Source: Prasinococcaceae sp. CCMP 1430
Taxonomy: Eukaryota; Prasinodermophyta; Palmophyllophyceae; Prasinococcales; Prasinococcaceae
DNA length: 26,893 nt
Reading direction: 5' to 3'
NCBI GenBank assembly: GCA_013416795.1
Contig: RQSC01000003.1
Coordinates: 147,181-174,073, forward strand
Part shown: positions 5,786-26,893 of the stretch, piece by piece
Numbering within the stretch: position 1 is the stretch's first letter
How the letters are laid out: each line of letters begins with the position of its first letter
Notes under the pieces: model-generated
The model's input: the letters and a program-made list of their open reading frames with translations, nothing else
The model's database searches: none
What the model was told of the DNA's origin: nothing
Program-made: the position numbers and the translations under genes

Positions 5786-6004
5786 GGGCGCGAGGCGTCC
5801 CGCAGAGCGGCCACGNTGCACGCGCACCCGGAAAAAAAAAAACTGTCACTTCTACGTGAAAAGGGATCATGTGTCATCATACTTGTCTTGTAACTGTACC
5901 ATGATGATATACACTGTGCGCACCGTCACTACTCCACCCGCGCTGCGGCCATTGCTGCCGCTCTCTGTGCGCCTTCTCGATCGGGAGCCTTGCTCGCCCG
6001 CCAA

Positions 6005-14100: not shown

Positions 14101-17100
14101 ACGTTCTACTGGAGCTCCAAGTACAAGCACATCTACGACCAGGACAAGGACGCGCACATGCGCCGCTACGAGGAGGCCAAGAAGCCGCTCGCGTCCTTCG
14201 ACAGCGACATCGTCAAGTACAGGGACCTGCAGGACAAGGTTCAGGGTGAGGACACGAGCATCAACATGAGCTTCCTGCACCTCGACTCCGCGCCGCTCAA
14301 GCAGGCGCTGGTGGCGCACTGCGAGGAGTGGGCCGGCCGCTTCCTCAAGCTGCTCAACGCTTTGGCCGCCGACGAGCTGCGTGCCATCCACTCGCACTTC
14401 AGCAGCACCACCGAGGAGCTGCGCCGCCCTGTGGTCAACTTGGATATGCTCGCGGACAGCGTGGCGCTCCTCAAGCGCACGGTCGCCGACGCGCCCCACA
14501 TGGAGGCGCGCTTTGAGCCGCTCGAGGAGAAGTACCGCGTGCTAGAGAAGTTTGACCACGACGTGGGCGAGCAGGAGCAGGCCCTGCGCGAGTCCCTGCA
14601 ACCTTCGTACGCGGCATTCTGCGCGATGCTGCAGGAGACCGAGCTCGACCTCGAGCGCGCCAAGGAGCAGTTTCGCGAGCAGCTGCAGAAGATGGTGGCC
14701 GAATTCACGCGCAGAGTCGCTGAGCAGCGCGAGCTCTTCTCGCAGGAGGCGCCCTTTACGGTGGAGGGCTTCACGCACCCCCAGGCTGTCGAGTACATCG
14801 AGGGCGCGCGCGAGGAGGTGGCCTCCAACCGCAAGAGAGAGGCGGAGCTCGCCAAGGGTCTCGAGATCTTCACAATGGCGCCGCCGCCGTACAAGGAGCT
14901 CGACGACACCGAGCGCGACCTCGCGCTGCTCGAGGGCGTGTGGGCCATCATCGACGAGTGGCAGCGCCGCTTCGACGGCTGGAAGGACGGCAAGTTCCGC
15001 GAGCTCGAGGTTTCGGCCATGGAGGAGGAGGCCGTGCGCGTCAACAAGAAGATCGCTAAGATCGGCCGCGAGATCCGCCAGTGGCCCGTGTGGCAGCACA
15101 TCCGCGCGACGGTCGACTCGTTCAAGTTGACCATGCCGCTCATCACTGACCTGCGCAACGAGGCCATGCGCCCCCGCCACTGGGAGCAGCTCATGGAGCT
15201 CATCGGCGAGCGCTTCGACCCCCAGGGCGACGACTTCACGCTTGGGCGCGTGTCGGAGTTCCGCCTGGACACCTTCGCCGACAAGATCGGCGAGCTCTCG
15301 AGCAACGCCAGCAAGGAGCTGCAAATCGAGGTGGCCTTGGAGAAGATCGACGAGAAGTGGCAGGTGAACGAGCTCGACATGGTACCGCACAAGGAGGGCG
15401 TGCCCGACGTGTACAGATTGCGCTCGGCTGAGGACGTCTTCAACGACCTCGAGGAGAACATCGTGGCGCTCTCCACCATGAAGAGCAGCCGCTTCTTTTT
15501 GTCGTTCGAGGATGACATTACGAAGTGGGAGCGGGCGCTCTCGCTGGTCAGCGAGATGATCGAGATCATCCTGCAGGTTCAGAGGAATTGGATGTACCTC
15601 GAGAACATCTTCGTGGGCTCCGAGGACATCCGCAAGCAGCTGCCGGCCGAGTCCAACATGTTCGACTTCGTCGACACGACCTTCAAGCGCTCCATGCTTG
15701 CCATGTTCGAGGCGAAGAACGTGCTCAAGGCCACGCACCTGCCCAAGATGCTCGACACCTTCCAGGACATGGACGCAAAGCTCGAGCGCATCCAGAAGTC
15801 GCTCGACGCCTACCTCGAGAAGAAGCGCCAGCAGTTCCCGCGCTTCTACTTTCTGTCCAGCGACGACCTGCTCGAGATCCTGGGCCAGGCCAAGGATCCG
15901 CTGAACGTGCAGCCTCACTTCAAGAAATGCTTCGAGGGAATCAAGAAGCTGGACATGCACGCGCCGGCGCTGGCCGAGGGGCGCCGCCACTTCGAGGCGA
16001 GCGCCATGACGAGCCCCGACGGCGAGACGCTGCCCTTCGCCGACGCCGTGAAGACCGAGGGCAGGCCTGAGGATTGGCTGAACGATGTGGAGGCCACGAT
16101 GTACGCCACCACCAAGCACTTTCTGCTTCGGACCATCGAGGAGGCCAAGGGCATGAAGAAGGATCGCTGGGTGAAGGAGTTCCCCGGGCAGTGCATCATC
16201 TCCGCCGGTCAGGTGCTGTGGACGGCCGACTGCGAGCGCGCGCTCTCCGATGCCGAGACGAGCAAGGCCGCGCTCAAGCTGCTCAAGAAGAAGTGGGTGA
16301 ACTACCTCAACAAGTTGACGGCTATCACGCGCAGCAAGCTCAACAAGGTCGAGCGCAAGAAGACCGTCGCGCTCATCACCATCGAGGTGCACGCGCGTGA
16401 CGTCATCGAGAAGCTCGTCAAGGCCGGCTGCTCGAGCGACTCGGCATTCGAGTGGGTGTCCCAGCTGCGCTTCTACTGGGACCGCGAGATCAACGACTGC
16501 GTCGTCAAGCAGGTGCTGAGCATTTTCAAGTACGGCTACGAGTACCAGGGCAACAACGGCCGTCTCGTCATCACGCCGCTTACTGACCGCTGCTACATGA
16601 CGCTGGGCGCGGCCATGTTCACGCGCCGTGGCGGCAACCCGCTCGGGCCCGCGGGTACCGGAAAGACAGAGACCGTCAAGGCGAGTTCAGCCCGAGCGCA
16701 CTCCGCTGCCACGCGCGCACGGGCACATACATACACACACACACACAAACGTACGCACACGCGCTGACGCACGCGCGGCACACACACACACACACAGGAC
16801 TTCGGCAAGGCGCTGGCACGCTACGTGGTGCGTTCCGCGCGCGCGCGCGCGCGCGCGCGCTGGGTGCTACGTTTCGCGGGGCGCCACAGCACGCGAGACG
16901 CCGCAGCACGCGAGATGCCGAGTCCTCCAAACCTCGCGCGACTGACCCCGCGTGCCTACACTGCATCAAAACTCGCAGATCGTCTTTAACTGCTCGGATG
17001 GCGTCGACTACAAGATGACCGCCAAGATGTTCAGCGGGCTTGCACAGACGGGGGCGTGGTCGTGTCTCGACGAGTTCAACCGCATCGAGGTGGAGGTCCT

Positions 17101-20100
17101 CAGCGTCGTCGCCACGCAGATCTCGGTGGTGATGTCGGCCATCAAGGCGGGCAAGAGCCGCTTCATCTTCGAGGGCGAGGACATCCGGCTCATTCCGTCC
17201 TGTGGAATTTTTGTGACCATGAACCCCGGCTACGCCGGGCGCTCGGAGCTCCCCGACAACCTCAAGGCGCTGGTGCGCCCCGTGTCGATGATGGTTCCCG
17301 ACTTCACGCTCATCGCCGAGATCATGCTCTTCTCGGAGGGTTTCCAGACGGCGAAGCCGCTCTCCAAGAAGATGATCTCCATCATGGAACTCTCGCCGCA
17401 GCAGCTGTCCAAGCAGGACCACTACGACTACGGCCTGCGCTCGTTCGTCATCCCGATCGCGCGCGCGGCCGGCGCGCTCAAGCGCGCCGACCCCGACGTG
17501 GCCGAGGACTTCATTATGTACCGCACAATGCTCGATCTCATCAAACCCAAGCTGGTGTACGCCGACCTCCCGCTGTTCCAGGCGCTGCTCTCCGACCTCT
17601 TCCCGGGGCTCGAGCTCAACGACGCGGGCAGTGCCGAGCTGCGCGCGGAGCTGGAGGCCCAAGTCAGGGCCGCCGGCCTGCAGATCGTGCCGGACTGGAT
17701 CACCAAGATGGTGCAGATCTTCGACTGCAAGGTGGCGCGGCACGGCAACATGATCGTCGGCAAGACGGGCGCGGGCAAGTCCGAGGCGTGGAAGTGCCTC
17801 ACGCGCGCTATGGCCGAGCTTAAGAAGCGAGGCGCGCAGGGCGAATACGAGCGCGTGACAGTGCACACCATCAACCCGCTATCGCTCTCCAACGACGAGC
17901 TGTACGGCTCGTTCGACGCCGCGACGCACGAGTGGTCCGACGGCGTGCTCGCCAAGCTCATGCGCACCATCTGCCGCGACGAGGGGCTCGACCAGAAGTG
18001 GGTGCTCTTCGACGGCCCCGTCGACACCCTGTGGATCGAGTCGATGAACACGCTGCTGGACGACAACAAGCTGCTGACGCTTCTCAGTGGCGAGCGGATC
18101 TCCATGCCAGCGCAGGTCTCGCTGCTCTTCGAGGTGGAGGACCTCTCAGTGGCCTCGCCCGCGACGGTCTCCCGCGCGGGCATGATCTACATGAATACCG
18201 AGGACCTGGGCTGGCAGCCCTTCGTCACCAGCTGGCTTGAAAGGAAGACCGACGCGGCCATGGTGCAGACGCTGCGCCGCATGGTCGACAAGTATGTGGG
18301 CGCCACGCTCGAGTTCAAGCGGCTCAACTGCGCCGAGAGCGTGCCCGTCGACCAGCTATCGTCGGTGCGCTACACGTGCGCGCTGTTCGACTCGCTGGCG
18401 ACCGCCGAGAACGGCGTCGACCCGTCCGAGGGCGACGAGCGCCTCCCCCTCGTAGAGATGTGGTTCCTCTACGCGCTGATTTGGGCGATGGGCGGCACGG
18501 TCGACGAGGAGGGGCGCAAGAAATTCGACATGTTCTTGCGCGAGCTCGACGCGCGCTACCCGAGCCAGGACACCGTGTTCGAGTACTACGTCGACCCCAA
18601 GAAGAAGGTGTGGACGCCTTGGGAAGAGAAGCTGGGCGCGGCCTACCGCCCGGCCCCCGACACGCCCTTTTTCAAGATGGTGGTGCCGACGGTCGACACG
18701 CTGCGCACGCGCGCCGTGCTGGACGCCTACGTGCGCGTCGGCCGCCACGCGCTGCTGACGGGGAACGTCGGCGTGGGAAAGACGCTCGTGATTGAGGGCC
18801 TGCTCGCGGCGCTGCCGAGCTCCAAGTCGAGCGTGACCATCAATTTCTCCGCGCAGACGGGCGCCAAGTCACTGCAGGAGACCATCGAGGGCAACCTGGA
18901 GAAGCGGACGAAGGGCGTCTTCGCGCCAGTGGGTGGCAAGAAGCTCGCCGTGTTTTGCGACGACCTGAATATGCCCGCAAAGAGCGTCTTCGGATTCATG
19001 CCGCCGCTCGAGCTCCTCAAGCTGTGGATGGACAACGGCTTCTGGTACGACCGGCAGCGCCAGGAGGTGAAACACGTCAAGGACATGCAGCTGCTGGGCG
19101 CCATGGCGCCGCCCGGCGGCGGCCGCAACGCCTTCTCGCAGCGCATCCTGTCCTGCTTCGGCGTGCTCAACATGACGGCGCCGAGCGACGCGCAGGTGCG
19201 CCGCATCTTCGGTGCGCTGCTCAGCAGCCGGCTCAGCGACTTCGACGACGAGATTAAGCCGCTCTCCGAACCCATCGCCGCGGCCACCACCGAGATCTAT
19301 AACGCGGCGCTCGAGCACCTCCTGCCCACGCCGTCCAAGTGCACGTACCTCTTCAACCTGCGCGACGTGGGCAAGATCGTGCAGGGCGTCCTGCAGGCGA
19401 GCCGGTCCTACTACGACAGCCGCGAGTCGCTGCTGCAGCTGTGGTGCCACGAGACGCAGCGTGTCCTGTCGGACCGCATGTGGTCGTCGGACGACAAGAC
19501 GTGGCTAGTGTCGCAGATCGACAAGCGGCTGAACGAGGACATGTCGACGAGCTGGGGGGCGCTCTTCGACCGCGGCGAGGTGCCGCCTTTCGTGAGCTTC
19601 ATGCGCGAGGTGGAGTCGCCGCCGTACGAGGCCGTTAACGACATGAACGCGCTCAAGGACCTGCTCACCGAGAAGCTGGAGGACTACAACCTCGAGCCCG
19701 GCACCAGCGCGATGGACCTTGTGCTCTTCCGCGACGCCATGCACCACCTGTGCCGCATCCACCGCGTACTGTGCCTCCCGCGCGGGAACGCGCTGCTCGT
19801 GGGCATTGGCGGGTCGGGCCGAAAGTCGATGGCGCGCCTGGCGGCGTACGTGGCCGAGCTCAAGGTGTTCTCCATCGAGATCACCAAGAATTACCGCCTG
19901 CAAGAGTTCTACGAGGACCTCAAGATGCTCTTTAAGCAGGCGGGGGCCTCAAACAAGCCCACCGTCTTCCTCTTCGACGACCAGCAGATCGTGCACGAGA
20001 CCTTCCTGGAGGCGATCAACAACATCCTCACCAGCGGCATCGTGCCGAACATCTTCCCCAAGGACGAGCTGTCACCCATCCTCGATGAGTGCCGCGCGGA

Positions 20101-23100
20101 CGCCAAGAAGGTAGGCATGGGCGACACGGCCGACCAGGTGTTCAAGTTCTTCCTCGAGCGCGTGCGCAGCAACCTGCACGTGGTGCTGTGTCTGTCGCCC
20201 ATCGGCGAGGCCTTTCGCAACCGCGTGCGCATGTTCCCCGGGCTGGTCAACTGCACCACCATCGACTGGTTCACCGAGTGGCCGGGCGACGCGCTCTTTG
20301 AGGTGGCCGCCAAGCTGCTCGAAGAGGAGAGCCTCGGCTCCGACGAGGTGCGCACCAACATCTGCAAGGTGTTCGTGACGGCGCACACCTCCGTGTCGGA
20401 GGCGTCCGACCAAATGCTGCGCTCGCTCAAGCGCCACAACTACGTGACGCCCACCAACTATCTGGAGACGCTCAACACGTACCGCATGCTGCTCAAGGAG
20501 AAGCGCGCGAGCGTGGGCGAGCAGGCTAACAAGCTGAGCGGTGGTCTCGAGAAGCTCGGGGAGACGTCGGTGCAGGTGGGCGAGATGCAGGTGGTGTGCG
20601 AGGACAAGAAGGTGGTCGTGGCCAAGGCAAAGAAGGACTGCGAGGAGCTGCTCGTGGAGATCGTGCAGGAGAAGCGCATCGTGGACGAGCAGGAGAAGAC
20701 GGTCAACGCCGAGGCGGCCAAGATCGAGAAGGAAGCTGCGGAGACGCAGGTTATCGCCGACGACTGCCAGCGCGACCTCGACAAGGCGATGCCAGCGCTG
20801 AATGCGGCCGTTGAGGCGCTCAACGTGCTCACGAAGAAGGACTTGTCCGAGGTGAAGGCGTACGCCAAGCCGCCGCCGGCCGTCGAGACGACCCTCAACG
20901 CCGTCCTGACGGTGCTGAAGCGCCCCGCGGGCTGGGACGAGGCCAAGAAGCAGCTCAACGACTCCGCCTTCCTCACCAAGCTGATGGAGTACGACAAGGA
21001 CCTGCTCAACGACGCGCTGCTGAAGAAGATCGGCAAGTTCACAGGGCAGGAGGACTTCACGCCCGACAAGGTGGGCAAGGTGTCGGGGGCGTGCCGCGGC
21101 CTGTGCCTGTGGGTGCACGCTATGGACACCTACGGCCACGTGGCCCGCGACGTGGCCCCCAAGCGCGCCAAGCTCAAGGCGGCGACCGACACGCTCAACA
21201 AGAAGCAAAAGGCGCTCAAGCAGGCCAAGGCACAGCTCGCCGAGGTGCAGGCGAAGGTCCAGGCGCTTAAGGACAAGTACGAGCAGTCGACATCCTCCAA
21301 GGAGGCGCTGCAGCGCGAGGCCGAGGACCTCGAGCTCAAACTGCAGCGCGCGGAGAAGCTGGTGAACGGCCTGGCGGGCGAGAAGGGCCGCTGGGAGGCG
21401 TCGATCGGCGTGCTGCAGGAGCAGCTCACCCAGCTGCCCGGCGACGTGATGATGGCAGCAGCCTTCATGTCGTACGCGGGGCCCTTCCCCAAGACATACC
21501 GCGAGGAGCTCGTCGAGCACACGTGGATGAAGCAGCTTCAGCAGCTGGCGGTGCCCAGCTCGCCCAAGTTTGACTTCGCGGGCTTCCTGGCGGATCCATC
21601 CGACGTGCGTGACTGGAACATCCAGGGGCTGCCCAGCGACTCGTTCTCGACGGAGAACGGCGTGATGGTCACGCGCGGCCGCCGCTGGCCGCTCATGATC
21701 GACCCGCAGTCGCAGGCCAACCAGTGGGTGCGCGCCATGGAGGCCAAGAACGGCCTGCAGCTCATCGACCTGCAGATGCCAGGCTACATCCGCACGGTGG
21801 AGAACGCCGTGCAGTTCGGCTCGCCCGTGCTGCTGCAGAATATCCTCGAGGAGATCGACCCCATCCTCGAGCCCCTGCTCTCGAAGGCCTTCATCAAGAA
21901 GGGCAACTCGACGCTCATCAAGATCGGCGACAAGGAGCTCGACTTCTCGCCCGACTTCAAGCTGTACATCACCACGAAGCTCTCCAACCCGCACTACCAA
22001 CCGGAGATCTCCACCAAGGCGATGATCTGCAACTTCGCGCTTTCGGAGCAGGGCCTCGAGGCGCAGCTGCTGAACACCATCGTCAAGAAGGAACGGCCCG
22101 ACCTGGACCAGCAGAAGGGCGAGCTGGTGGTCAAGGTGGCCGCCGGCAAGCGCAAGCAGGCCGAGCTCGAGGACACCATTCTGTACATGCTCTCCACAGC
22201 GACCGGCTCGCTGCTCGACAACGTGGAGCTCATCAACACGCTGGACAGCTCCAAGGTGACCTGGGAGGAGGTGAACGAGTCCCTCAAGGTGTCCGAAGAG
22301 ACCTCCGAGATGATCGACCAGGCGAGCTCGGCGTATCAGCCGAGCGCGCTGCGCGCGTCCGCCCTGTACTTCGTGCTGAGCGACCTCGCGATGATCGACC
22401 CGATGTATCAGTTCTCGCTGGACGCCTACCAAGAGCTCTTCCTCACGTCGATCGCCAAGTCAGATAAGTCTGAGGTCATCGCTGAGCGCATCAAGAATCT
22501 CAACGACTATCACACGTATGCCGTGTACCGCTACACGTCGCGCGGTCTGTTCGAGAAGCACAAGCTGCTGCTCTCCATGCAGCTGTGTGTCAAGATTCTT
22601 CAGAGCTCTGACGCCGTCAACATGCAGGAGTGGACGTACCTGCTGCGCGGCGGTTTCGTGGTGGACAAGGCGGCGCAGCCGGCCAACCCCGCCCCGGCGT
22701 GGATCAGCGAGGAGATGTGGGACAACGTCTCGATGCTGGAGGAGCTGCCCAACTTCAAGGGCGTGGTAGCATCCTTCGAGCAGGCCAGCATGGTCTGGGA
22801 GTGGTACCGCGAGGGCGAGCCCGAGGTCGCCGAGCTGCCAGGCGAGTGGGAGGCGAAGTGCGACGAGCTGCAGCGGCTGGTCTTCGTGCGCTGCCTGCGG
22901 CCCGATCGCGTCATCTTCGCGGCCACCTCGTACGTTGCCAACAACCTCGGCCGCAAGTTCGTTGAGCCGCCGGTGCTGGATCTCGGCGAGGTGTACGTCG
23001 ATTCGAACCCGCTGACGCCCATCATCTTCGTGCTGAGCCCCGGCGTGGACCCCACGTCCAACCTGCGCCAGCTCGCGCAGCAGCAAAGCCAGGACGACCT

Positions 23101-24784
23101 GGTGGCCATCGCGCTCGGCCAAGGCCAGGCGCCGCACGCAACGAAGGCCATCGAGGCCGCCGTGGGTAGCGGCGGCTGGGTGTTCCTGGCCAACTGCCAC
23201 CTGATGACCAGCTGGCTGCCCGCGCTCGAGAAGATCATCGAAGACCTGCCAAACAAGAAGCCGCACGCCAACTTTCGGCTGTGGCTGTCGTCCAACCCCA
23301 CGGCCGACTTCCCGATCAACATCCTGCAGGGCGCGCTCAAGCTCACCACGGAGCCGCCACGCGGCCTGCGCGCGAACCTGCTTCGCATGTACTCGACCGT
23401 CTCCGAAGAATCGTTCGCCGAGTGCCGCAACGCGCAAAAGTACTCCAAGCTTCTCTTCTGCCTGGCGTACTTCCACTCCGTGCTGCTCGAGCGCCGCAAG
23501 TTCCAGTCTCTTGGCCTCAACATCCCGTACGACTTCAACGACACCGACTTCGCAGTGTCGGACGACCTGCTCAAGACGTACCTCGACGAGTACGCTGAGG
23601 TGCCCTGGGACGCCCTCAAGTACCTCATTTCGGAGGCGAACTACGGCGGGCGCGTCACGGACGAGCTGGACAGGCGCGTGCTCAACTCGTATCTCGAACA
23701 GTTCTACTGCGAGGACGCGCTCAACGTGCCCAACTACCCGCTGTCGACGCTCACGCACTACTACGTCCCCGAGCACGGCACGCTGCAGTCGTACAGGGAC
23801 TACATCCTCACGCTGCCGTCGGTGGACGACGCCGAGGCGTTCGCCCAGCACCCCAACGCGGACATCTCGTACATGATCCATGACTCGAAGACTATCCTCA
23901 ACTCGCTGGTCTCGTTGCTCCCGCGCCAGTCCGAGGGTGAGGGCACGTCCACCGACGACATCGTCACGAGCGTGCTGGAGGACCTCACCACGCAGGTGCC
24001 AGGCCCATGGAATCTCGAGGAGGTGCAGAAGGCCAAGGCCGGCGATCCGAGCGCGCTGCACGTTGTGCTCTTCCAGGAGGTGGAGCGCTACAACGTGCTG
24101 CTGAGCCTGCTCCATCAGACGTGCGAGGCCACTAAGAAGGGCATCAAGGGGCTGGTGGTCATGTCGGCCGAGCTCGACTCGATCTTCAACGCGGTGGCCG
24201 CCGGCAAGGTGCCTGACGCGTGGAAGAAGACCTACCCGAGCCTCAAGCCGCTGGGCTCGTGGATGCGCGACCTGGTGCAGCGCGTTGAGGAGCTCAACCA
24301 GTGGATCACCGGTTCGTACCCCAGCGTTTACTGGCTGTCGGGATTCACCTACCCGACGTGCTTCCTCACGGCCGTGCTGCAGACCACCGCGCGCCGCGAC
24401 GCCATCCCCATCGACACGCTCAGCTGGGACTTCTCCGTCGTCAACCTCAACGAGAGCGAGATTGCGCAGCCGCCAAAGGACGGCGTGTACATCAAGGGCA
24501 TCTTCCTCGAGGGCGCTGGCTGGGACTTCGACAACGGGTGCCTCACAGAGCCCGAGCCGCAGGAGCTCATCGTATCGATGCCCATCCTCCACTTCAAGCC
24601 CGTGGAGAACAAGAAGAAGTCGGCGAGGGGGCTGTACTCGAGCCCGCTGTACCTGTACCCGCTGAGGACGGGCACCCGCGAGCGGCCCTCGTACATGATC
24701 TCGGTCGACCTCAAGGCCGGCGCGCACGACTCGGACGTCTACGTCAAGCGCGGCACCGCACTGCTGCTCGCGCTCGACCAATAG
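11125..24784 (+). CDS. DNAH2: Inner-arm dynein heavy chain, DNAH2 type (I1/f dynein 1-beta, Chlamydomonas DHC10)
   Basis: Join 11125..16680, 16798..16827, 16979..24784, about 4,463 residues plus a missing first exon (human DNAH2: 4,427). Axonemal motor. The tail has HTVLYIP- and IHWTRQIKE-like blocks (GRTVLYIPNEELG, LIHWTRQIKEV) and GPLAEIEFWRSRSVDLSGI, as in DNAH2. Then: linker with RDKWVKEW-like RDRWVKEF; AAA1 P-loop GPAGTGKT (16645-16668) with Walker B CLDEFNRI; AAA2 GKTGAGKS (17759-17782); AAA3 GNVGVGKT (18761-18784) with CDDLNMP; AAA4 GIGGSGRKS (19802-19828); stalk coiled coils about 20490-20830 and 21150-21410 around the microtubule-binding tip; AAA5/6; and the C-terminal domain. The end, with PPKDGV, EGAGWD, KKSARGLYSSP and KRGTALL, matches DNAH2 better than monomeric-dynein or outer-arm chains. 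Start inferred from acceptor CCGCGCAG, phase 0. TAG at 24782-24784. Confidence 0.93.
16681..16797 (+). other. Dynein intron with GC-AG ends and a CA-rich tail
   Basis: Donor AAG|GCGAGT, acceptor CACACAG|GAC. Using the nearby GT in ACC|GTCAAG would drop the conserved Val-Lys of the family's TETVKD motif, so the GC donor is preferred. CTGAC lies at 16764-16768. The final part is nearly pure CA repeat and acts as the acceptor tract. Confidence 0.75.
16798..16827 (+). other. 30-nt dynein microexon (10 codons)
   Basis: It encodes DFGKALARYV, joining TETVK to IVFNCSDG exactly as in the AAA1 region of other dyneins (typical TETVKDLGKALG.YVIV.NCS.G). It is bounded by CACACAG and GTGCGT. Both flanks are phase 0, so skipping would remove ten residues without a frameshift. 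Confidence 0.85.
16828..16978 (+). other. Dynein intron with (CG)n tract
   Basis: Donor GTG|GTGCGT, acceptor AACTCGCAG|ATC. It contains a 25-nt alternating CG run (16836-16860) and CTGAC at 16942-16946, about 32 nt before the acceptor. Confidence 0.8.
16836..16860. repeat. (CG)n dinucleotide tract
   Basis: 25 nt of strictly alternating C and G inside the second visible dynein intron. Such alternating purine-pyrimidine sequence can favour Z-DNA. Confidence 0.9.
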
Positions 24785-25060: not shown

Positions 25061-25075
25061 TGGCCATCGACTCAC

Positions 25076-25249
25076 CCAGAATAGTCCCACCGACGAAGTC
25101 GACCGACCGCGACGATGTTGAGACTGACGAGCCGCCGCGACCTTTCATCGAGCCCAGCCTGAAGCAGGGCTCTCCAGGCGCAGCGAGGGCGTGCATAGAG
25201 ACTATGCACGTCGCACGGACTGGCTGAGGACAGCCATCCGTGTCCCCAT
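25076..25249 (-). other. Possible internal exon, product unknown
   Basis: On the minus strand a pyrimidine-rich tract ending CCACCACCAG (to 25250) and a GTGAGT donor (25075-25070) bracket 174 nt. Two of the three frames are open across it; one contains MHALAAPGEPCFRLGSMKGR, another LQAGLDERSRRLVSLN. No homology is recognised and no CTGAC element lies before the acceptor. The splice signals alone are weak evidence. Confidence 0.2.
25190..25210. other. Perfect 9-bp hairpin with 3-nt loop
   Basis: CGTGCATAG, AGA, CTATGCACG form a fully paired stem-loop. Role unknown. Confidence 0.6.
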
Positions 25250-25304
25250 CTGGTGGTGGGGAGAGTGGTGGAAGAGAGGGTGTGCGTGTTCGTGCCTGCG
25301 CGCG

Positions 25305-25390
25305 TGTATGTGTGTGTGTGTGTGTGTGTGAGAGAGAGCCTGTGTGTGAGGGCCTCTGTGTGTGCGTCTGTGTGCGAGCATGTGTGCGTG
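25305..25390. repeat. (TG)n-rich tract
   Basis: TG dinucleotides, pure at about 25309-25330, then interrupted by GAGAGAG and GC-containing units. Confidence 0.85.
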
Positions 25391-25435
25391 GGTGGTGGGG
25401 GTGCGTGCGTAGGGCGGGTCACATCGGACCGGCGC

Positions 25436-26030
25436 CTACTGGCCAGTGTAGAGCTGAAGCATGATGTTGCGTGCGGCGTTGTCGTCCCGGCCCATGCTGC
25501 GTGACTGTCCTGCCAGGCTTGAACATCTCCGCATGCTTGCACGACTGGGCGGTGATGGTGATGGTCCAGGCCGAGCGTTCGCGTTTGTTCTTAAAGCGCA
25601 GCTCGAAGGCGTGCGCCGGCTGCCCACGTTTCAGTCGCTCCTCCTGCTTGCTCACGTTTGAGGCGTGGGCGTGAAACGCGTCCCGGCACGCGTGCTGCCG
25701 GACACAGGCAGCGATGTTGCTGAGGCCCGGGTGCTGGCGTATGAAGTGCCCCTTCGTCCTGGTCCCCGATGGGATGCGCTGTGCCTGGTCCCTGCCGTCG
25801 TTGATCTGCTGCAGCGCTCTCTTGAAGTCCTCGCTCTGCGACATGAAGGTGGACTCCTTGGGCCCTCTGCCCGTGTCCTCAGTGGCCAGGCATTGCATGA
25901 TGACCTTCTCCACCCACTTGGAGAGGGGCTCGGCGGCCTCAGTGCCGCCCGCGTGCCTGCCAACGCCTGCGTTGCGCAGGAGCTCGACCGCCAGGTTATA
26001 AATCTTCCTGGCGCCGCGCATTTGCTGCAT
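25436..26030 (-). pseudogene. Decayed TnpB/Fanzor-like (OrfB family) RNA-guided nuclease remnant
   Basis: Minus strand, two frames. Frame one (from about 26030) has ARKIYNLAVELLRNAG, then VRQHACRDAFHAHASN, KQEERLKRGQPAHAFELRF and KNKRERSAWTITI. This order (R..YN.AV; VR..A..D...A...N; F.L.F+.K+....TI) is typical of the N-terminal half of TnpB/IS607 OrfB and eukaryotic Fanzor proteins. The frame then shifts by about 25500. A second frame gives GRDDNAARNIMLQLYTGQ and a stop at 25436-25438; RDxNAARNI is the last RuvC motif, with its catalytic Asp, at the C-terminus of that family. The RuvC segments carrying the first Asp and the Glu, and the zinc-finger cysteines, do not fit in the few residues between, so the core appears deleted. 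Known: intact relatives are transposon-encoded RNA-guided DNA nucleases. This copy is inferred to be inactive. Confidence 0.6.
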
Positions 26031-26893
26031 CAGCCAGCGCCGCTGACGAGTCGATGGTGCGCTGCAGGTTGAAGGGGACGCTCTGGATGGCGAGCTTGTC
26101 CGCCCCGATCTTCGAAAAGCCGGGGATGTCGCTCACGGTGGACAGCAGGCTCTCGGACGACGCGCTGACGGTGCTCACGAGGCCGCGCTGCTCGCGGGAG
26201 GGCGGGGTGGACTCCAGCAGCTGCGTGACGCCGATCATGCCGTTCAGCGGGGCCCTGATCTCGTGCGACATGGTGGCGAGGAAGCGGCTCTTCAGCGCCG
26301 CCGCCGCCTCCGCCTCCTGCGCGGCCGCCGTGGCCTCGGCCTCGGCCTCGCGGCGCCGCACGAGCTCGCTGATGTCGCTCTGGATGCCCACGTACTGCGT
26401 GAGGTTGCCCGCGGCGCCGCGGATGGGCGTCACCGACGGGTAGTTCACGAAGGGCGTGCCGTCCCTCTTGTAGTTGAGCATCTCCACGCTGACGTGCTCG
26501 CCCGCCAGGATGGCGTTTCGCAGCTTGGCGAGCGGCGCGGGGTCGGTGCCCTCGCCCTGCAGGAAGCGGCAGTTGCGCCCGAGCGTGTCCTCCACGCTGT
26601 ACCCCGTCATGGTGTAGAACGCCTCGCTGGCGAAGACCAGCGGCATGTCGGGCAGGCGCGCGCCGGCGATGGTGATGCCCTCCGAGAGCATGCTCATGGC
26701 GCGCACCTTGAGCCACATGGACGCCCCCTGCCGGACGGCATGGTCGATCAGCTGCTTGGCGTCCAGCGCCTGCTGATGATCTGCCGCAGCTCGCGCGCCG
26801 ACTTGTTGTGCAGGGACGCGTCGGCCGCCGTGCCGCTGGGCATGCGCGAGCGCCTGCCGCCGCCCGCGCGCGCGCCCGAGTCGGCGCCCGAGC
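25996..26893 (-). CDS. LOV-domain sensor histidine kinase, truncated (partial at window edge)
   Basis: The gene enters from the right edge. From the ATG at 26718: LOV/PAS domain (about 13-118) with the flavin-binding GRNCRFLQG, Cys50 being the expected photo-adduct cysteine; a helical linker (about 118-142); then HisKA with FLATMSHEIRAPLNG, phospho-acceptor His152. The domain looks worn: the usual ILDFSKIEAGKL block reads IPGFSKIGADKL. After FNLQRTID (216-223) the frame ends at a TAA (25996-25998), with no HATPase domain. The last residues overlap, in another frame, the start of the TnpB/Fanzor-like remnant. Upstream of the ATG, a frame change near 26768-26776 separates SLHNKSARELRQIIS from ALDAKQLIDHAVRQG. 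LOV-HKs are known as blue-light sensors in some algae. This copy is probably a pseudogene or interrupted allele. Confidence 0.7.
   Translation of the reverse strand, partial: LGRRLGRARGRRQALAHAQRHGGRRVPAQQVGARAAADHQQALDAKQLIDHAVRQGASMWLKVRAMSMLSEGITIAGARLPDMPLVFASEAFYTMTGYSVEDTLGRNCRFLQGEGTDPAPLAKLRNAILAGEHVSVEMLNYKRDGTPFVNYPSVTPIRGAAGNLTQYVGIQSDISELVRRREAEAEATAAAQEAEAAAALKSRFLATMSHEIRAPLNGMIGVTQLLESTPPSREQRGLVSTVSASSESLLSTVSDIPGFSKIGADKLAIQSVPFNLQRTIDSSAALADAANARRQEDL

Follow-up and report, generated by a model that had tools for sequence, protein, structure and literature searches.

The locus described here, on the minus strand next to a dynein gene, is very probably a Fanzor pseudogene that is truncated at its 5' end, internally deleted, frameshifted and dead, and it is the sole copy that we found. 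It lies in a window of 26,893 nucleotides (147181-174073 of a eukaryotic contig; all other coordinates are those of the window) from an assembly of 24.5 Mb in 145 contigs. The eukaryotic genes of the window include those for a NYD-SP28 sperm-tail protein, a methyltransferase and an L24e ribosomal protein that is split across two frames, and the relic adjoins a gene for a dynein heavy chain, an axonemal motor protein (16952-24784). Isolated N bases occur at 5816 and 10826. Judging from the first-pass annotation and from a LOV-type kinase beside the relic, the source genome would be of algal type. A past TnpB/Fanzor gene is thereby recorded in a eukaryotic genome with axonemal genes in which no working copy was found; the record contributes a single observation on how protists gain and lose RNA-guided nucleases, and it offers no usable enzyme.

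The motifs on which the first-pass annotation had based a TnpB/Fanzor relic are present on the minus strand where it had placed them, and profile ranks and shuffles put them above chance. The front half of the protein (25518-26057, minus strand) is an open frame without stop that matches the family profile and contains helices around ARKIYN, a REC-like stretch, VRxxAxxDA and FELRFKNK..TITI. RKIYNLAVEL, VRQHACRDAFHAHASN and AFELRFKNKRERSAWTITI all fall within a listed 203-aa ORF that extends on the minus strand from its ATG at 26030 to a stop at 25419, covering the front half and then crossing the tail out of frame. The front frame itself is open from 26132 to 25422 (237 aa), and family similarity reaches about 26057, slightly past the start given previously. 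The tail (25436-25504, minus strand) reads SRSMGRDDNAARNIMLQL(YTGQ) followed by the stop TAG and is recognised as RuvC-III by profile match, by translation and as the sole match to the pattern RDxNAARNI in the genome. Its motif GRDDNAARNIML, at 25492-25457 in a frame other than that of the front, continues to LYTGQ-stop; this tail frame bears GRDDNAARNIMLQLYTGQ, with the TAG at 25438-25436. The locus therefore shows both marks of TnpB/Fanzor ancestry, a front with TnpB-fold blocks and a C-terminal RuvC-III of the form RDxN.A.NI, but not in one uninterrupted frame.

Reference sequences were collected without the relic by running two DNA patterns around DPGVRT on viral contigs (15 and 43 stretches). 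An ORF whose motifs stood in the expected order was obtained from seven stretches of three kinds, each of them a match to the second pattern, and the set was then widened by relatives gathered in two rounds (15 and then 45 loci) and by a protein search with 2582 hits, of which 120 were listed. The first profile comprised ten Fanzor2-like proteins, the relic being excluded, and a larger one 142 sequences. Six of the ten proteins (L079-L084) are themselves devoid of the zinc-finger cysteines, with TSKTVSW or TSKTASW replacing TSKTCxxCG, while their E and RD are retained, and one 259-kb viral contig (IMGVR_UViG_3300031087_000527) carries two similar Fanzor2-like genes (L120 and L121) about 150 kb apart.

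Against 1320 targets (320 window frames of at least 40 aa and 1000 front-frame shuffles), the ten-protein profile placed the front at rank 1 (20.3 bits, E 1.5e-5), followed by the tail at rank 2 (8.5 bits, E 0.058). The front match covers hmm positions 160-271 of 522 in two stretches that score 8.6 and 9.9 bits singly and 20.3 bits jointly, and that of the tail positions 489-506 at 25504-25451. Both ranks persisted after frames from eight other loci of the genome and 5000 shuffles of each piece had been added (10,000 in total; best shuffle 5.0 bits). With the 142-sequence profile the front scored lower than before, at 15.5 versus 20.3 bits (second stretch 4.5), and the tail reached 9.9 bits, the best shuffle being at 7.8. 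Profiles resampled to 30 sequences, which were drawn from the same 142 and are hence mutually non-independent, put the relic frames first and second among the 379 window frames of at least 30 aa in eight of eight cases (front 9.7-19.7 bits, tail 5.3-10.4 bits). The tail score by itself is not significant; it is position, order and uniqueness that carry weight. The DNA pattern for RDxNAARNI was matched only once on both strands of the 24.5 Mb, at the relic, and its reversed control gave 0 matches.

The TnpB/Fanzor origin proposed in the first-pass annotation was thus borne out by profiles built without the relic, and its expectation that the N-terminal frame would match a family profile held for the purpose-built Fanzor2-like profiles, where it ranked first, and failed for curated ones. 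None of the four curated libraries (Pfam, NCBIfam, PHROGs and PADLOC) gave a family match to the relic, the best scores being a Pfam DUF at E 0.12, which is chance level, and E 1.6 in PHROGs. Such libraries can evidently overlook relics of this sort, whereas a small profile made for Fanzor2-like proteins detects both pieces. A sequence search of the PDB was empty, the protein database returned the relic itself and no relative, and no relative appeared among viral and genome contigs, all of these searches reaching as far as fairly close relatives. Low absolute scores, silent curated libraries and an unusual internal spacing might together suggest GC-rich frames that resemble TnpB blocks by accident. 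We consider this extremely unlikely, given two pieces on one strand, in family order and 13 nt apart, that took ranks 1 and 2 with ten of ten profiles, and given that the only RDxNAARNI pattern match of the genome falls exactly here. As a matter of sequence ancestry, the identification of the relic as TnpB/Fanzor appears secure, though individual scores are modest.

Comparison by eye with the ten Fanzor2-like proteins gives evidence for the identification and some against it. In its favour, eight alignment columns in the retained parts show no variation among the ten, and the relic keeps seven of them (R, N, A, R, D, A, I), with N in place of the S of FKSRK. Against it, among nearly invariant positions, the R of FKSRK has become K and the G of RDxNG has become A. 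Also against it, the front matches the profile as two separate stretches because the N of ARKIYN and the A of VRQHA are 102 residues apart, compared with 41-53 in the ten profile proteins and 40-53 in all 142 references. The parts of the relic were placed inconsistently in MAFFT alignments, and a structure model reached a pLDDT of 50, too poor for use.

The coordinates of the two profile matches define a deletion junction at 25505-25517 (minus strand), where about 13 nt replace profile positions 272-488, i.e. 217 positions. Both the internal deletion and the frameshift that had been claimed for this copy are thereby supported, front and tail being in different frames, and so is its state as a relic: the absent positions comprise RuvC-I, including the DPG, RuvC-II, including the glutamate, and the zinc finger. 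An excerpt of PMC10711439 describes the catalytic triad of the Fanzor family as D-E-D, divided among RuvC-I, II and III. With two of the three triad residues missing, no working nuclease would be possible, and the relic is accordingly predicted to be unable to yield a functional one. Either the relic probably began to decay not very long ago, or the gene was of outside origin. GC content by codon position in the relic frame is 0.85 at the third position against 0.60 and 0.48 at the other two, and since this gene-like pattern is still kept, a fairly recent pseudogene seems plausible; at third positions the kinase reaches 0.99, and the dynein gene, over its final 4.8 kb, 0.93.

The 5' end of the relic is formed by another broken gene. 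A LOV/PAS-HisKA histidine kinase fragment occupies 25996-26892 on the minus strand (Pfam PAS_9, 2.3e-16; HisKA, 2.4e-14) and ends after HisKA at the start of the relic; no HATPase domain was matched by Pfam in the kinase ORF or in the five ORFs beyond it up to the dynein gene. The kinase bears the LOV motif GRNCRFLQG. The junction between kinase and relic lies at about 26035-26080, its exact point being uncertain as two possible readings overlap. The KIRxxPT strand, conserved near the start of the fold, is also missing from the relic, and the frame upstream enters the kinase gene. That the kinase and the Fanzor gene are both broken and lie side by side suggests a single event that joined the two fragments.

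Upstream of the kinase, a run of at least 5.9 kb of N starts at the right end of the window (from 174074 of the contig), about 0.8 kb from the relic, and the start of the kinase gene would fall inside it. This proximity, together with a relic frame free of stops and with gene-like codon periodicity, might indicate an intact Fanzor gene of which about 650 bp, and with them the frame, were lost in assembly near a scaffold gap. Such an artefact is very unlikely, however: the deletion junction is free of N and 1.4 kb within the sequenced stretch, and the protein also lacks its start, where kinase sequence stands instead. The N run, moreover, may represent sequence that was withheld and no scaffold gap.

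A decayed Fanzor gene explains the locus best, and its history was probably as follows. The ancestral gene, presumably delivered by a transposon, would have coded for an RNA-guided nuclease. The copy would have lost its 5' part at the histidine kinase junction (about 26035-26080), possibly in the same event that broke the kinase gene, and an internal loss of about 217 codons, comprising RuvC-I, RuvC-II and the zinc finger, would also have shifted the frame and separated two parts that were once joined. What remains would be a REC/WED-like front and the RuvC-III tail, from which no nuclease would be made.

The flanks of the relic showed no convincing TIR or TSD, the upstream side being bounded by the N run; the repeats seen were of 8-10 nt between the flanks, along with dinucleotide-type inverted repeats among the 25 listed of 60. 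Five neighbouring ORFs contained no transposase, nor any Pfam domain. Downstream of the relic, a two-hairpin stretch (25066-25276, minus strand) is located between two dinucleotide-rich stretches, one AC-rich and one GT-rich. Folding of 25150-25500 gave a z of -3.0, with 0 of 100 shuffles equally stable; Rfam had no match in the window at gathering score, and no second copy of the 25066-25276 stretch was found in the genome. This stretch is possibly an omega-RNA remnant or an element end.

The stable fold, the open 203-aa frame and its third-position GC could also be read as signs of a short gene that has been kept (the 203-aa ORF itself, or else the tail plus a 3' RNA), used by the host or acting in trans as a ghost locus with omega-RNA for a Fanzor elsewhere. 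Fanzor ghost loci with omega-RNA and without protein are indeed described in an excerpt of PMC10432273. Yet the ORF ends in out-of-frame sequence, had no homologue in the protein database or among viral and genome contigs, and comes without an Rfam match for the RNA, and genome searches revealed no intact Fanzor that would use such an RNA. A kept gene is consequently very unlikely, and it seems just as improbable that the site, besides marking where a Fanzor element broke the gene of a light-sensing LOV histidine kinase, is a Fanzor gene reduced to a 3' end and an omega-RNA that still guides in trans.

A dead and solitary copy also fits the searches for further ones. The first-pass annotation had supposed that intact relatives exist in the same genome, and this was not upheld: the relic protein, its DNA and the motif pattern found no second copy, full-length or otherwise, nor did the Fanzor2-like L122, a relative taken from a viral contig, as query or the families PF01385, NF040570 and PF12323 searched over the genome. 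PF07282 gave one doubtful match below threshold. This match (G000:C1:84674-84787) is a TNB-type zinc ribbon of 23 bits, below the cut-off, beside a Kelch protein, and is probably unrelated to Fanzor. The empty family searches say little about other relics because PF07282 and the other families missed the relic itself; strongly diverged or intron-rich copies could escape. The protein search of the genome runs exon by exon, and an empty result for a single protein without a positive control proves nothing.

Among known systems, the relic shares with Fanzor2 and IS607-type TnpB (pro-Fanzor) the front helices around aRyxYN, xxAxxDA, FkSRK..sI and the RDxNgARNI tail, in identical order. It differs from them in having no DPG, RuvC-II or zinc finger and no transposase domain seen nearby, and from the Fanzor2-like references in its ARKIYN-VRQHA spacing of 102 versus 40-53 residues (n=142). 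The REC domain is enlarged by insertions in Fanzor1 according to excerpts of PMC10711439 and a figure legend of PMC10432273, and the long REC-like stretch of the relic fits such insertions in Fanzor1 (SpuFz1, GtFz1 and others). The spacing is thus a hint, from sequences compared with Fanzor2-like and TnpB references only, that the relic may be of the Fanzor1 kind. Decayed, truncated and deleted Fanzor1 copies are already known from a green alga: in an excerpt of PMC3627910, those of Chlamydomonas (CRe-1, 2 and 3) are linked to Helitrons and form many-locus families, whereas we found one copy of the relic and identified no Helitron end at it. The same excerpt describes the Chlamydomonas copies as often 5'-truncated and internally deleted, with almost all 3' ends intact, and the relic shares this pattern of 5' truncation, internal deletion and retained 3' end.
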